Shown here one piece after another: positions 54,954 to 63,748 of a stretch of DNA of 64,000 nt. The DNA is taken from assembly GCA_015234045.1 (NCBI GenBank), contig JADFWU010000010.1, forward strand, positions 1-64,000. Reading direction: 5' to 3'. Both the position numbers and the translations under genes were made by a program. Origin of the DNA: Magnetococcales bacterium. Its GTDB lineage: Bacteria > Pseudomonadota > Magnetococcia > Magnetococcales > JADFWU01. Numbering within the stretch: position 1 is the first letter of the stretch; the number at the start of each line of letters is the position of its first letter. The notes beneath the pieces are model-generated. The model did no database searches. It was given only the letters and a program-made list of their open reading frames with translations, and was not told the DNA's origin.

Positions 54954-55007
54954 ACAGCCTGTTTAGGTGGCGCTTGCTATACTTTTTCGCGTTTCTAAAC
55001 AGGCTGT
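54954..55007. repeat. Long inverted repeat after the SGNH gene
   Basis: ACAGCCTGTTTA at 54954-54965 and TAAACAGGCTGT at 54996-55007 are perfect 12-base inverted copies around a 30-base loop. It may act as a terminator for the SGNH gene or as the end of a mobile repeat; R1 starts 9 bases later. Confidence 0.55.
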
Positions 55008-55015
55008 ATAGGAAT

Positions 55016-55167
55016 TTCGTCTACAATTTGAACAGTCAGCCGTTTCAGCCCTGGTGATATTTTTGCTCTGATGATCTGCTTCGCGTATCAAAAGCGGCGC
55101 AAAAATATCACCAGGGCTTCCACTCGGGTTGTGATTCATTTTCAGATTTTGGATCGAAATGACTATA
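55016..55167. repeat. Repeat R1, full copy A
   Basis: Core is a perfect 20-base inverted repeat: AGCCCTGGTGATATTTTTGC at 55047-55066 and its complement at 55099-55118, separated by 32 bases. Unique flanks CTACAATTTGAACAGTCAGC and TTGGATCGAAATGACTATA recur in the other copies. No open frame. Confidence 0.85.
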
Positions 55168-57760: not shown

Positions 57761-57808
57761 ATTGCTGATCCATCGCTTTCGTGATCGTGATTTGGTCTGA
57801 TGCATTGA

Positions 57809-57844
57809 ACGCCCTGTCTGGATTGTCAGACAGGGCGTTTTTGT
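57809..57844 (+). terminator. Rho-independent terminator after the CorC-type gene
   Basis: AACGCCCTGTCTG pairs with CAGACAGGGCGTT around a short loop and is followed by TTTTGTTTG. Strong intrinsic terminator about 50 bases after the stop. Confidence 0.92.
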
Positions 57845-58102: not shown

Positions 58103-59419
58103 ATGCCATCGGATCAGGATAGATCAGCCAAACTGCATCAAGCAGAAATAGAGATTCGTTATCTGCAAGAGACCATTCAAGCTCAACGTGATGAGATTGA
58201 ACGCTTGGCCTATGATAAGAGCCGAAACGTTCAGGAAGCCCATGTCACCAGAGAGCAGGAAGTTGACCAACTCCATAATACCATCTCAGCCGTTCGTGAT
58301 GAGATGGATCAGCGCCAGCATGATAATCTCAAAGCGGTTCAAAAGGCGCTTTCCCACCGTGAACAGGATATTATACAGCTAAAAGAGACAATAGCCGGTC
58401 TGCGTGATCGCCTGGAAGAGGCTCAGTATCAAGCCGGGCGTGACGTGCAAAAAACACGACTGCAAGGTCAGCAAGAGTCAGAGCAGTTGATCACCACGAT
58501 CAATGGTCTACGCGATGAGATTGATGCGCTCCAATACGAAAAGCAGAAAAGCATTCAACAGGCGTGGAGTAGTCGTCAGCAAGAGATCGACATGCTTGAG
58601 GAGACCGTTAGCACTCTGCGTGATGAGATGGAAAATATCCGCTACGAGATGAGTCGTAAAGTTCAAGAAGCTGTGGTGGCCGGTCAACAAGAGATCAATC
58701 AACTGGTTGAGACCGTTGAGCATTTGCGTGACACAATAGATGATATTCAGCATGAGAAGCAAAAAAGTGTTCAAGAGGCTATTTCACAAGGAAATCAGGT
58801 TGTTCGGCAGATGGAAAAAACCATCTCTGCTCTGCGTGATGAAATGGACTCCATTCAGTATGAAAAAAGCAGGAGTGTTCAGAAAGCGGTTGTATCCGGT
58901 GCACGTCAGGCAGAACTGCTTCAAGAGACAGTGCAAAAGTTACGTGATTCGTTGGATGAAATGGGACACGAAAAGCATAAGGCCGTTCAACAGGCCGTTG
59001 TAGATGGCCATCACGAAGCCTCTTTGCTTCAAGATACCATTCAATCCTTGCGCGATAATCTGGACAGTCTGAACTATGAAAAAGGCAAAGCGGTTCAGCA
59101 GGCAGTGGTGACCGGACAAAATGAAGTTCAGCAGCTTCAAGAGGCTGCTTCAGCGCTGCGTGATCGGCTGGATGACATACGCTATGAAGGTCAAAAAACA
59201 TCACAGCAGATTCGTGCTCATTCGGAGCAGGACTCCAAACAGTTTCAACATACCATTAGTTCATTGCGTGATGAGATGGATCAGATGCGCTATGAACATG
59301 AGAAACAAATTCAGGCTATGGTCAAGCAGGAACGCGATCAGGCCAACCATCTAAAAGAGATGATCGTCGTATTACGGACGCAACTGGAGCAGCAGCATGA
59401 CCAACCCAAACTCGGATAA
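58103..59419 (+). CDS. Coiled-coil protein built from eleven in-register 36-residue repeats
   Basis: 438-residue all-helical protein. After a 16-residue lead, eleven complete 36-residue units run from residue 17 to 412 without any insertion or deletion, and a 26-residue partial unit ends the protein. The unit consensus is roughly E-x-x-x-L-x-E-T-I-x-x-L-R-D-E-M-D then Y-E-K, then V-Q-x-A. Charged, Gln-rich and Cys-free, with no signal or TM segment, it is probably cytoplasmic. Thirty-six residues equal about ten turns of a straight alpha-helix, or 7+7+11+11 mixed heptad/hendecad. I recognise no named family. The cyclase start overlaps its 3' end by 23 bases, so a scaffold or regulator for the cyclase is a reasonable guess. 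Confidence 0.8.
   Translation: MPSDQDRSAKLHQAEIEIRYLQETIQAQRDEIERLAYDKSRNVQEAHVTREQEVDQLHNTISAVRDEMDQRQHDNLKAVQKALSHREQDIIQLKETIAGLRDRLEEAQYQAGRDVQKTRLQGQQESEQLITTINGLRDEIDALQYEKQKSIQQAWSSRQQEIDMLEETVSTLRDEMENIRYEMSRKVQEAVVAGQQEINQLVETVEHLRDTIDDIQHEKQKSVQEAISQGNQVVRQMEKTISALRDEMDSIQYEKSRSVQKAVVSGARQAELLQETVQKLRDSLDEMGHEKHKAVQQAVVDGHHEASLLQDTIQSLRDNLDSLNYEKGKAVQQAVVTGQNEVQQLQEAASALRDRLDDIRYEGQKTSQQIRAHSEQDSKQFQHTISSLRDEMDQMRYEHEKQIQAMVKQERDQANHLKEMIVVLRTQLEQQHDQPKLG
58151..59338 (+). repeat. 108-base periodic coding repeat (11 units)
   Basis: DNA image of the 36-residue repeats. Units share short identical words (for example GCGTGATGAGAT and AAAAGC...GTTCA) but have diverged, so the array is old and kept by selection on the protein rather than by recent duplication. 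Confidence 0.8.
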
Positions 59420-61733
59420 TAAGGCCAGTTCCGCATCAAAGCCCGCGACAAAGCCTGTAACAAAGGCGCGGGCAGCAACACGCAGCTATAAATCCGAGCT
59501 GGATCGGATGACCATGCTGCTCAACATCTCCAAGGAGGTGGCCGCAGCGGATAATCTTGATGGTATGTTGCGTACCATCGTGGATCTGGTGGTCAAAGAG
59601 ACCGGTTCAGAGCGGGGATCTGTTTTTCTTTATGATAAGCAGACTGGAGAGCTCTATTCACGCTATGCCAAGGGCAGTTTCAAGCGAGAAATTCGAATAC
59701 TGAGCAATAAAGGCGTTGCGGGTCATGTGTTCACAAATGGTGAAGGGCTGATTATTCATGATGCCTACAGTGATGAGCGCTTTGATTCTTCTGTTGACAA
59801 AGAGACAGGCTTTGTAACCAAGTGTATCCTTTGTGCGCCGATTTATAATGTGCGTAGAGAAGTTATCGGTGTTGTCCAGGCATTGAATAAAGCGTCATCC
59901 CGTTACAATGAAAAAGATTTGCATTTTCTTGAGTCCATGTCCACACAGGTGGCCATCACCCTTGAAAGCGCCCAGCATATTGAATTGATGGAGCAGACCC
60001 GCAAGCAGGAGATGAAGTTCCTGGATATGGTCTCGGACATTACCTCAGAAATTGAGATTGATACTCTGCTACAAAAGGTGATTTCTGAAGCAACCCGTAT
60101 GCTCAAAGCGGATCGTGGCACACTGTTTCTTAACGATGAAAAGAGCAAAGAGCTGTTTAGTCGTGTAGCCATGGGCGACTCCATCGGTGAGATTCGATTG
60201 CCCAATACTGTTGGGATTGCGGGTGCCGTTTTCGCTTCTAAAGAGACCATTAACATCCCATACGCCTATGCGGATCTGCGTTTTAATCCGGCGTTCGATA
60301 AAAAGACCGGATACTTCACACGGTCAATTCTGTGTGTGCCGGTGATTAATAAAAAAGGTGTGACCATTGGTGTCACCCAAATGCTCAATAAGAAGGGCGG
60401 TGTCTTTACACAGGAGGATGAATCCCGACTCAAGGCGTTCACGGCTCAGGTCTCCATTGCTTTGGAGAATGCGAAACTGTTTGAAGATATCCAACGTATC
60501 AAAAATTACAATGAAAGCATGTTGGAAAGTATGTCAAACGGCGTGATCACCATCAGTGATGAGGGTGAGATTGTCACATGTAATAAGTCGGGTTTGCATA
60601 TTCTACAGGTCACTGCTGACGAGATGTTGCATAAGCCAGCCAAAGAGTTTTTCGTAGATGAGAACGAATGGATTCTTGAGCGGGTAGATCATATGTCCGA
60701 AACGTTGGAAATGGACATCATGATGGATGTGGAAATCCTCTGTGGTGAAGCGCAAGAGAAGGTTTCGGTGAATTTGTCGTTTCTGCCATTGATGAGTGGT
60801 GATAATCAGCGACTCGGTTCCATGATCATGATTGAGGATATCAGCTCTGAGAAGCGGGTGAAGTCTACCATGGCGCGGTACATGGACGCGGGCATTGCGG
60901 ATCAGCTCATGGCTGGTGGTGATGATCTACTTGGCGGTAAGAGTATTGAGGCAACGGTGTTGTTCTCTGATATTCGAAGCTTTACCACGTTAACTGAATC
61001 ACTGGGTGCGCAAGGTACGGTTCAGCTGTTAAATGAGTATTTCACCATCATGGTGGATGTGATCCAAGATGAAGGCGGCATGCTGGATAAGTTTATCGGT
61101 GATGCCATGATGGCTGGTTTTGGTCTGCCGGTTGCTCATGGTGATGATACGGACCGCGCGTTGCGGGCGGCAATTCTGATGATTGTCAAGCTCAACGAGT
61201 TTAACGAAGCGCGGGCCAAAGAAGGTAAAATGGAAGTGAAGATGGGCATTGGTCTGAACACCGATATGGTGGTGGCCGGTAATATTGGTTCACCCAAGCG
61301 GATGGACTATACCATGATCGGAGATGGTGTGAATCTGGCTGCCCGTTTGGAGAGTGCCTGTAAAACTTATTTTTCGCAGATTTTGATCAGTGAATACACC
61401 TACCGTAAACTCAAAGGCACCTATCGGATGCGTGAAATTGATCTGGTGATTGTCAAAGGCAAGACCAAGCCCGTTGGCATCTATGAGGTGTTGGACTACC
61501 ACACGGAAGAGACTTTTCCCAATCTTATGGATACGGTGAATCACTTCTCCGCTGGATTACAACGGTATCGAAAGGGTTTTTTCCAGACTGCGCTTGAGAG
61601 TTTCGAAGAAGCGTTGGCGCACAATCCCAGCGACAAGTTATCTGCTATGTATATTGAACGGTGCCAGCATCTGATCGAAGAGCCACCACCCGAAGAGGAG
61701 TGGGATGGTATCTGGGTCATGAAAACCAAATAG
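59397..61733 (+). CDS. Adenylate cyclase: GAF - GAF - PAS - class III cyclase - TPR-like tail
   Basis: 778-residue soluble cyclase. GGAG at 59386-59389 supports the ATG at 59397, inside the previous gene. A Lys/Ala/Thr-rich lead precedes GAF1 (about 45-200), GAF2 (about 215-365) with the N-K-x-F/E-x-D-E blocks, and a PAS-like region (about 370-490). The cyclase has both metal Asp residues (F-S-D-I-R near 522 and F-I-G-D-A near 567). The Lys in L-D-K-F and Asp in M-D-Y-T are the residues that select ATP over GTP, and N-L-A-A-R-L-E supplies the Asn/Arg pair, so the product should be cAMP. The tail has a TPR-like A-L-E-S-F-E-E-A-L. GAF domains may bind cyclic nucleotides or other small molecules. 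Confidence 0.92.
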   Translation: MTNPNSDNKASSASKPATKPVTKARAATRSYKSELDRMTMLLNISKEVAAADNLDGMLRTIVDLVVKETGSERGSVFLYDKQTGELYSRYAKGSFKREIRILSNKGVAGHVFTNGEGLIIHDAYSDERFDSSVDKETGFVTKCILCAPIYNVRREVIGVVQALNKASSRYNEKDLHFLESMSTQVAITLESAQHIELMEQTRKQEMKFLDMVSDITSEIEIDTLLQKVISEATRMLKADRGTLFLNDEKSKELFSRVAMGDSIGEIRLPNTVGIAGAVFASKETINIPYAYADLRFNPAFDKKTGYFTRSILCVPVINKKGVTIGVTQMLNKKGGVFTQEDESRLKAFTAQVSIALENAKLFEDIQRIKNYNESMLESMSNGVITISDEGEIVTCNKSGLHILQVTADEMLHKPAKEFFVDENEWILERVDHMSETLEMDIMMDVEILCGEAQEKVSVNLSFLPLMSGDNQRLGSMIMIEDISSEKRVKSTMARYMDAGIADQLMAGGDDLLGGKSIEATVLFSDIRSFTTLTESLGAQGTVQLLNEYFTIMVDVIQDEGGMLDKFIGDAMMAGFGLPVAHGDDTDRALRAAILMIVKLNEFNEARAKEGKMEVKMGIGLNTDMVVAGNIGSPKRMDYTMIGDGVNLAARLESACKTYFSQILISEYTYRKLKGTYRMREIDLVIVKGKTKPVGIYEVLDYHTEETFPNLMDTVNHFSAGLQRYRKGFFQTALESFEEALAHNPSDKLSAMYIERCQHLIEEPPPEEEWDGIWVMKTK

Positions 61734-61750: not shown

Positions 61751-62218
61751 ATGACTGAGACAGAAATCAACTCCTCTGAGACACTGTTAACTGTATTAAA
61801 AAATGTTTCACAAAACGCTACCAAAGCCGGACTTGATTCGCTATTGGTTGATATGGTTTCTGAGACAATCGACAAGGTGAATTCGTATCGTTTTGCCGAG
61901 CAGTTGGGTATGGTAGGCGGTGCGAATCGTACTGACGCGCAGGTCAACAAACGCGAAAACTATCGCGTAGCCACCGAGCAAGAAGGGTTGGTTATCCGCG
62001 ATGGCAACAAAACCCGCATTTTGATTCTCGATATGAGTCCGCAGGGATTCGGCATAGAAAGCCCGGTACGCATTCCCAGTCATAAACAGGTGATGCTGGA
62101 GTTACACTCTTCTGAAGGTGGCAACGATCTGTTTTCTTGCCAAGTGGCGGCGTGTCAGAAGAAAGAGAAAGTCTTCCGTGTTGGTTTGAAAGTAATGGAT
62201 ATGTTGCCGAGGTTTTAA
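61751..62218 (+). CDS. PilZ-domain protein
   Basis: 155-residue protein, 17 bases after the cyclase stop and therefore probably in the same operon. GAGAAAGGG precedes the ATG at 61751. The first ~60 residues are helical. The PilZ domain begins near 62 with K-R-E-N-Y-R-V, containing the R-x-x-x-R-like arm, and continues with D-M-S-P-Q-G-F-G-I, the D/N-x-S-x-x-G motif that binds cyclic di-GMP. A beta-barrel to the end completes it. It would link c-di-GMP to the cAMP-making partner; the spacing of the first arginine pair is slightly unusual, so binding needs to be shown. Confidence 0.8.
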   Translation: MTETEINSSETLLTVLKNVSQNATKAGLDSLLVDMVSETIDKVNSYRFAEQLGMVGGANRTDAQVNKRENYRVATEQEGLVIRDGNKTRILILDMSPQGFGIESPVRIPSHKQVMLELHSSEGGNDLFSCQVAACQKKEKVFRVGLKVMDMLPRF

Positions 62219-62487: not shown

Positions 62488-62515
62488 CGTAAATCGGGTG
62501 CTGATATAGTGCTTT

Positions 62516-62665
62516 CGTATAAAATTTGAACAGTCAACCGTTCCAGCCCTGGTGATATTTTTGCTCTGATGATCTGCTTCGCATATCAAAAGCGGCGCAA
62601 AAACATCACCAGGGCTTCCACTCAGGTGGTGATTCATTGTCTAATTTTGAATCAAAATTACTATA
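62516..62665. repeat. Repeat R1, full copy B
   Basis: Same layout as 55016-55167: arms at 62545-62564 and 62597-62616 match in 19 of 20 positions. It lies next to the IS21 remnant. A frame that runs through it (62569-62838) is not considered coding. Confidence 0.85.
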
Positions 62666-62963: not shown

Positions 62964-63236
62964 ATGGCAGCAGCAACTCAGAGAATTGATTTGCGACTGA
63001 AACCAGAAGCTAAACAGATCATCAGCGAAGCCGCTGACGCTATGGGAGTGAGTATTTCAAATTTTGTCACCAGCTGTGTGCTGGAAAAAGCGCGAAGAGT
63101 TATTCAAGAAAGAGATGTAATCCGACTATCAAGTCGGGATCACGATGCCTTTATGGAGGCAATTAATAATCCGGCACCCCCCAATGAAAAATTGATCAAG
63201 GCTGTCAAAAACTATCGTGAAAGAGGTTTTACATGA
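62964..63236 (+). CDS. DUF1778-family antitoxin (TacA-like)
   Basis: 90-residue antitoxin. The N terminus T-Q-R-I-D-L-R-L-K-P-E-A-K is the ribbon-helix-helix strand that binds DNA, and the helical middle S-I-S-N-F-V-T-S-C-V-L-E-K-A is the rest of that domain. The C-terminal ~40 residues would bind and neutralise the acetyltransferase toxin. AGGGG lies about 8 bases before the ATG. It overlaps the toxin gene by 4 bases. The upstream palindrome and direct repeats are possible operator sites. Confidence 0.92.
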   Translation: MAAATQRIDLRLKPEAKQIISEAADAMGVSISNFVTSCVLEKARRVIQERDVIRLSSRDHDAFMEAINNPAPPNEKLIKAVKNYRERGFT

Positions 63237-63748
63237 AGCGAGATACAGTCAACCAAGGTGTGCCACTCACCAAGCACCACAACCGAAATTTATTTGATTG
63301 TGGTGTTACAGAGCTAGATGAATATCTTAAGAAATTTGCACTTCAGCATAGCAAAAAAGATATTTCTAAACCCTACGTAATTTTGACTAAAGATGGTCCC
63401 GCTCGGATTTGCGGCTATTACACCATCAGCACAGCTCATGTGATGCGCGATCAGTTGCCAGAGAATGAGCAGAAAGGCCTGTCAGGACATCCGGTTCCTG
63501 TTATACGCATAGGCCGACTGGCTGTTGACCGTACTATGCAGGGTCAAGGTATTGGTAGTGATTTACTCACTGATGCCATGAATAAAGCCATGCAGATTGC
63601 CGACATGGTTGGCGTTAGAGCGGTAATTGTCGATGCTAAAGATGAGTCCGCAAAGGCTTTCTACGCTGGATTCGGCTTTGTTGCACTCAAGGATACCCCC
63701 TTGAATCTGTACATGTCCTTAAAGACGTACAGGACTGCATGGACATAA
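63233..63748 (+). CDS. GNAT-family toxin (TacT-like)
   Basis: 171-residue acetyltransferase of the kind that blocks translation by acetylating charged tRNA. The start F-D-C-G-V-T-E-L-D-E-Y-L is typical of these toxins; the acetyl-CoA loop is Q-G-Q-G-I-G near 102-107 after I-R-I-G-R-L-A-V-D, and F-Y-A-G-F-G-F near 143-149 carries the conserved Tyr. The ATGA overlap with the antitoxin gene gives the usual coupled order. It may stabilise the genomic region. A terminator hairpin follows. Confidence 0.92.
   Translation: MKRDTVNQGVPLTKHHNRNLFDCGVTELDEYLKKFALQHSKKDISKPYVILTKDGPARICGYYTISTAHVMRDQLPENEQKGLSGHPVPVIRIGRLAVDRTMQGQGIGSDLLTDAMNKAMQIADMVGVRAVIVDAKDESAKAFYAGFGFVALKDTPLNLYMSLKTYRTAWT

Follow-up and report, generated by a model that had tools for sequence, protein, structure and literature searches.

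Signalling helices pass a conformational signal within single proteins, and the S-helix, a short heptad segment of the same chain, precedes cyclase and kinase domains. Among the tandem-GAF adenylate cyclases, CyaB2 is activated by binding of cAMP to its GAF domains (PMC4411481). In Rhodospirillum centenum gcyB and gcyC are putative non-catalytic guanylyl cyclase subunits (PMC4681086), and in the geometry of coiled coils a straight (unstrained) helix has a period of 3.63 (PMC4786415). The locus described here lies in a window of 64,000 nucleotides, i.e. positions 1 to 64,000 of contig JADFWU010000010.1 of a Magnetococcales bacterium, and it appears to combine a known cyclase type with an unnamed, obligate and unusually regular coiled-coil partner (the coil or, as a protein, the rod) that has no name in the family libraries and open literature searched.

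Neither Pfam nor NCBIfam has a model that fits the coil above cut-off: the Pfam matches that do exceed their cut-offs, some of them only just, are short, vary from one member to the next and belong to unrelated families (L1 trimerisation, cwf21, HalX), and the SMC model scores 34 bits against a cut-off of 567. Solved structures gave no sequence match. A first-pass annotation of the window had known of no named family with this unit, and a match to a characterised repeat family, since sought, was not found. In the open literature searched there was no paper on a 36-residue-repeat coiled coil, on a coil-cyclase operon or on Magnetococcales cyclases with coiled coils.

The coil gene and its repeat array

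The coil gene occupies 58103-59419 of the forward strand (protein 58103-59416), encodes 438 residues and has a ribosome-binding-like site, GGGGGGAG; a search of its own genome gave one genuine match to it. On the same strand eleven contiguous units of 36 residues (58184-59371, consensus LRDELExLRFEKDxAVQxAVAxGxDEIxQLKxTIxA) follow one another in a natural register that starts at LRD, with no indel between them and an average pairwise identity of 37%. When the protein is compared with itself, identity is 0.37 at a lag of 36, 0.40 at 72 and 0.36 at 108, and at most 0.15 at the other lags from 2 to 119; the maximum in 2000 shuffled sequences, over lags 20-59, was 0.133. Self-identity and unit alignment thus uphold the earlier reading of eleven exact, indel-free units. 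The span then given, 58151-59338, comes to 1188 nt or 11 x 36 codons, and denotes the same units in a shifted frame of reference. A nucleotide tandem-repeat finder run on the window missed the array because the repeat is conserved in the protein and not in the DNA.

The two ends of the rod have features of their own. The last of the eleven units (59264-59371, forward strand) is a C-terminal cap whose family consensus, yedxiQxxeRaaRDExxQLQeTI, is unlike that of the internal units, and it is followed on the same strand by a tail of 15 residues (LRxxLE..., 59372-59416) that has its own consensus and ends the rod. The partial unit that the first-pass annotation placed at the end of the protein therefore stands, as this tail; missing from it was a second partial unit, at the N-terminus (58130-58183, forward strand), in which EIRxLxxTIxA is kept in homologues.

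The unit is also exactly 36 residues long in the homologues. A profile applied to 80 coil proteins places 355 of 355 scored units in one 36-residue register, a count that is not fully independent, the PSSM for the register having been trained on the family itself; autocorrelation is independent of it, and when no model is used the upstream ORFs of nearly all loci match themselves best at a lag of 36 or 72. Register shifts proposed by a permissive Viterbi alignment were rejected as artefacts of a low indel penalty, and a strict test gave zero shifts. The comparison of repeat number among relatives that had been proposed at first pass gave 2-11 units per protein, all of 36 residues; irregular lengths were sought and none was found. 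The arrays of the Magnetococcales are the longest, with 4-11 units against a median of 4 elsewhere; within one genus the numbers are 4, 4, 6, 6 and 10, and a Verrucomicrobiota clade is fixed at 3. Internal units share a mean of 51% identity (up to 100%) inside one protein as against 36% between proteins, and whole units thus multiply and get lost. The protein itself is under constraint, since dN/dS for close coil pairs is 0-0.22, i.e. under purifying selection.

Two observations concern the assemblies. Units as nearly identical as some of these may be undercounted in short-read assemblies. In genome G410 the apparent second coil (L155) runs to the end of contig C13 and the first (L114) begins at the start of contig C376, so that the two are probably halves of one coil gene broken by the assembly.

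Helix periodicity and predicted structure

Hydropathy along the window coil peaks at 3.60 residues per turn, with a power of 469 compared to at most 134 in 2000 shuffles and 1.2 at 3.5, and the peak falls at 3.585-3.62 in 50 of 50 proteins with at least four units. The hydrophobic stripe takes up positions 1, 5, 8, 16, 19, 27, 30 and 34 of the unit, completed by a small residue at position 23 and, in most cases, Lys at 12; its spacing of 4-3-4-4-3-4-4-3-4-3 makes ten turns per unit. Outside the stripe, polar residues are strongly conserved (R2 98%, Q17 86%, E26 91%, Q29 80% and T33 84%), and they are retained in the cap. The coil accordingly lacks the period of 3.5 that distinguishes a canonical heptad coiled coil, and has the period of 3.6 and uninterrupted helix of the 18/5 straight type. 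Because its periodicity is slightly under 3.63, packed helices of this kind should be almost straight (PMC4786415). The nearly straight stripe of ten 3.6-residue turns foreseen in the first-pass annotation is confirmed by these peaks and by the near absence of power at 3.5. The structure prediction of the coil alone that it had suggested also gave an unbroken helix: AlphaFold2, with four units and the tail as a single chain and an alignment of 44 sequences, returned one helix over residues 2-154 with a pLDDT of 94.7. By arithmetic, at ~1.49 angstrom per residue, a unit would be ~53.5 angstrom (5.3 nm) long and the window rod roughly 60 nm.

Periodicities of 3.6-3.67 residues are also found in amphipathic helices that lie on surfaces, e.g. 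those of perilipin, apolipoprotein and the GvpC repeats. The coil shares this periodicity, and could by that token be a long amphipathic helix on the surface of a membrane or storage granule that recruits the cyclase. However, its stripe is narrow and flanked by charges (positions 2, 6, 13, 26 and 31), as is typical of helix-helix packing, and the match to the GvpC repeat (PF05465; E 0.14) is below cut-off and not significant, so that surface binding of this kind is the least probable of the explanations considered.

The fixed length of the unit invites another comparison. Tropomyosin lies along actin, and subunits of MreB, MamK and crenactin are spaced about 51-53 angstrom apart. A 36-residue unit would match the subunit spacing of such actin-like filaments and the coil could be a cytoskeletal ruler that brings the cyclase there; fixed unit length with variable unit number is what a lattice match predicts, and a second conserved arc (E6, F10 and Q17, at 240-280 degrees) faces away from the stripe. 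This is a candidate idea with no filament partner identified, however, and ten whole turns that keep the stripe in phase explain the fixed length without a lattice; we regard it as improbable. The fuller proposal by analogy, a tropomyosin-like ruler whose unit is locked to the filament spacing and which would deliver a self-activating cAMP cyclase to the filament, seems to us slightly less probable again; if true, the lock would explain why 0 of 355 units deviate despite drifting unit number.

Pairing of the coil with the cyclase

A contig scan seeded with the cyclase alignment yielded 80 loci whose orthologues are 59-72% identical; the titles of their records name alpha-, beta- and deltaproteobacteria, Verrucomicrobiota/Opitutaceae and Acidobacteriota, and in some cases Planctomycetota. 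The coil is directly upstream at all 75 loci that have upstream sequence (at one of them, L124, by eye), and the other five are cut at a contig edge. A scan seeded with the coil itself returned no match because repeat patterns make a poor seed, and among plasmid records no cyclase of the coil-paired group was found at E 1e-100. In MAGs titled Kuenenia (L091) and Planctomycetaceae (L098) the cyclases fall in a betaproteobacterial clade, and that of a MAG titled Scalindua (L061) also falls inside the proteobacterial clades; this placement suggests that the bins are mislabelled or contaminated, and they are therefore not counted as evidence for Planctomycetota.

Within the order, 11 of 48 genomes have a cyclase orthologue (58-71% identity besides the window), and the same 11 have the coil, with neither gene found alone. 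A separate coil gene of 4-11 units is directly upstream in 10 of these 11, and in 6 of the 10 pairs the coil stop and cyclase start overlap by 4, 10 or 23 nt. Across 398 genomes of the phylum the coil was detected in 23 (E 1e-15) and the cyclase in 24 (E 1e-180) before correction; once three borderline cases had been read, both were present in 25, neither in 373 and one alone in none, a co-occurrence with a Fisher value of about 3e-40 (8e-33 uncorrected). The three cases are a fusion (G006), a coil of two units (G169) and a coil whose contig ends 0.9 kb away (G235), so that its cyclase has probably been cut off. In the other lineages 22 of 22 genomes have one coil beside one cyclase of the group, the extra piece in G410 aside.

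The specificity of this pairing is marked. Other cyclases of the same genomes are without a coil. A related tandem-domain cyclase (L156, G419:C187), with 46% identity over residues 197-775 and a different N-terminus, has no upstream coil, and the coil is thus specific to one cyclase subfamily. The genes downstream of the pair differ between loci, so that conservation is confined to the coil-cyclase pair. The coupling to a cyclase that was proposed at first pass is hence borne out at every informative locus, by the perfect co-occurrence and by one natural fusion, and homologues without a cyclase neighbour, which it had named as grounds for refutation, were looked for and none was found.

A gene may keep its place beside another only through translational coupling or transcript organisation, its function being unrelated. 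Start codons do overlap or lie close in most coil-cyclase pairs, and start and stop codons overlap, as such a reading would have it. Against it, the pairing is kept across divergent lineages while other neighbours change, neither gene is found alone in the 398 genomes nor were intact unlinked copies found, one natural fusion exists, and other cyclases have no coil; an unrelated function is very unlikely.

In the fusion (G006) a short coil is joined to the cyclase N-terminus through a Pro-rich linker in a frame of 903 residues. It is the sole case, and its coil is degenerate, with one clear unit. G169 was also considered as a fusion on the length of its frame; this was rejected, its short coil being separate.

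The downstream cyclase

The cyclase gene (59397-61733, forward strand, as are all the parts located in this section) encodes 778 residues in the order GAF-GAF-PAS-class III cyclase-short TPR. Its ATG at 59397 is 20 nt ahead of the coil stop codon and the genes overlap by 23 nt, so that the first-pass statement that the cyclase starts inside the coil gene is correct. Residues 1-26 (59397-59474), which correspond to the coil junction in the fusion, are predicted to be disordered (pLDDT <50) and are poorly conserved. They are followed by GAF-A (59556-59963), with a degenerate NKFDE motif (NK...Y...DL), by GAF-B (60057-60470), with a complete one (N331, K332, F337, D341 and E342) that is invariant across 11 orthologues, and by a PAS domain (60513-60842). 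The class III catalytic domain (60948-61472) carries D525, D569, K565, T639, N646 and R650, all invariant across 21 homologues; K565 and T639 we take to be the adenine-selecting pair. Matches to the two Pfam GAF, PAS and Guanylate_cyc models exceed cut-offs, whereas the weak TPR-like segment with the conserved C-terminal tail (61542-61634) is under the Pfam cut-off. The closest PDB match (E 1.9e-41) is the structure 1ykd, of a tandem-GAF adenylate cyclase. By its domains, NKFDE motif and catalytic residues the predicted product is an adenylate cyclase of the tandem-GAF CyaB1/CyaB2 type.

Surroundings of the pair

The CNNM/CBS/CorC gene upstream is followed by its Rho-independent terminator (57807-57840, forward strand; 15-bp stem, 4-nt loop and T-run), which sets the 5' boundary of the coil-cyclase transcription unit. 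On the same strand, 17 nt past the cyclase, is a gene for a PilZ-domain protein with RxxxR and DxSxxG motifs (61751-62218), which is a local passenger: it was dropped as a part of the system, because outside the window it follows the cyclase in G042 alone, and among 56 other downstream ORFs a PilZ motif test singled out one, in L098, that looks spurious. With its c-di-GMP-binding motifs intact it may nevertheless provide a local link of cAMP to c-di-GMP.

 Positions 55007-55167 and 62505-62665 are direct copies, 89% identical, of a dispersed and internally palindromic element of ~137 nt; the genome has more than 40 copies of it at 92-97% identity, and a head-to-tail array with a 161-nt period is found at G000:C29:108818-109600. 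In a toxin-antitoxin-like pair at 62964-63748, a GNAT acetyltransferase comes directly after a TacA1-type antitoxin.

Proposed working of the pair

Since the two genes are always together, the rod is very probably a working partner of the cyclase, and one previously undescribed. That the two form a shared complex is the simplest reading of the invariable pairing, the fusion and the coupled start codons. Its form may be envisaged as follows. The rod would be a cytosolic, continuous alpha helix in which the 36-residue unit holds the stripe almost straight, and it would self-associate through that stripe; the cyclase, encoded immediately downstream, would be translationally coupled to it. The distinct C-terminal cap and tail of the rod would adjoin the flexible cyclase N-terminus and hold at least one cyclase dimer. 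The rod may thereby cluster or position cyclase dimers, such that the cAMP made could feed back on the NKFDE-bearing GAF-B in self-activation, and the number of units, which would change by whole-unit gain or loss, may set the rod length or the number of binding sites.

We give about an even chance to the core of this proposal, in which the coil, a straight helical rod about 5.3 nm long per unit, serves a CyaB1/B2-like cyclase as its obligate scaffold or regulatory partner. The polar residues conserved outside the stripe, which the cap retains, also speak for it. Several points count against it: the fusion is a single case with a degenerate coil, the cyclase N-terminus is too poorly conserved to suggest a specific docking helix, and genes so strictly paired might act in one pathway without their products touching. 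Binding of the rod to the cyclase, its oligomeric state and its effect on cAMP are accordingly put forward as expectations of the proposal, as are the C-terminal contact, the clustering and the feedback.

Alternatively, the coil may serve as a sensory or regulatory subunit, binding a ligand or protein along its repeats and sending a conformational signal into the GAF-GAF-PAS stack. The obligate 1:1 gene pairing is in keeping with this, the fusion puts the coil N-terminal to the GAF domains in the usual place of an input domain, and polar residues are strongly conserved along the unit. However, a joint that is disordered or Pro-rich differs from a rigid helical relay, and such a relay should not tolerate the change of unit number seen in the close relatives with 4, 4, 6, 6 and 10 units. 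The flexible joint and the free change of length thus favor a tethering or clustering rod over a rigid mechanical relay, and a sensory subunit is considered unlikely, though the likeliest of the alternatives.

If the rod is such a scaffold or partner, it is probably one that studies of CyaB-type tandem-GAF cyclases, conducted on single proteins, have missed. Several bacterial lineages would then share a two-gene module whose cyclase was never found without a rod of one unit length. The natural series of rods, from 2 to 11 units in one frame, offers a test of scaffold length or binding-site number against second-messenger output, and the coil could serve protein design as a clean building block with a straight helix.

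Comparison with known systems

The gcyB and gcyC genes resemble the coil in being non-catalytic genes tied to a nucleotide cyclase, and the Rhodospirillales also hold the coil-cyclase pair; the text on them (PMC4681086) is silent on repeats, and the likeness, drawn from the description alone, is a lead only, though the nearest one in the literature searched. The S-helix and the coil are both helical and N-terminal to the sensory part of a cyclase, but the coil is a separate ORF except in G006 and has many units that are not heptads, which sets it apart from the S-helix. With the 18/5 straight coiled coils the coil shares the geometry, 36 being 2 x 18 residues in ten turns. In those described, the 18/5 pattern is a stutter (heptad plus stutter) delocalised within heptad coils (PMC4786415), whereas throughout the coil family it is the strict repeating pattern, and the sequence recurs every 36 residues, without an 18-residue repeat. 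Anabaena CyaB1 and CyaB2, like the window cyclase, have GAF-GAF followed by a class III cyclase with a complete NKFDE motif in GAF-B; the window cyclase differs from them in its degenerate GAF-A. Its subfamily (at least 53% identity over nearly full length) differs further in that, while the available part of the CyaB2 report mentions no such gene (PMC4411481), it has the coil gene upstream.
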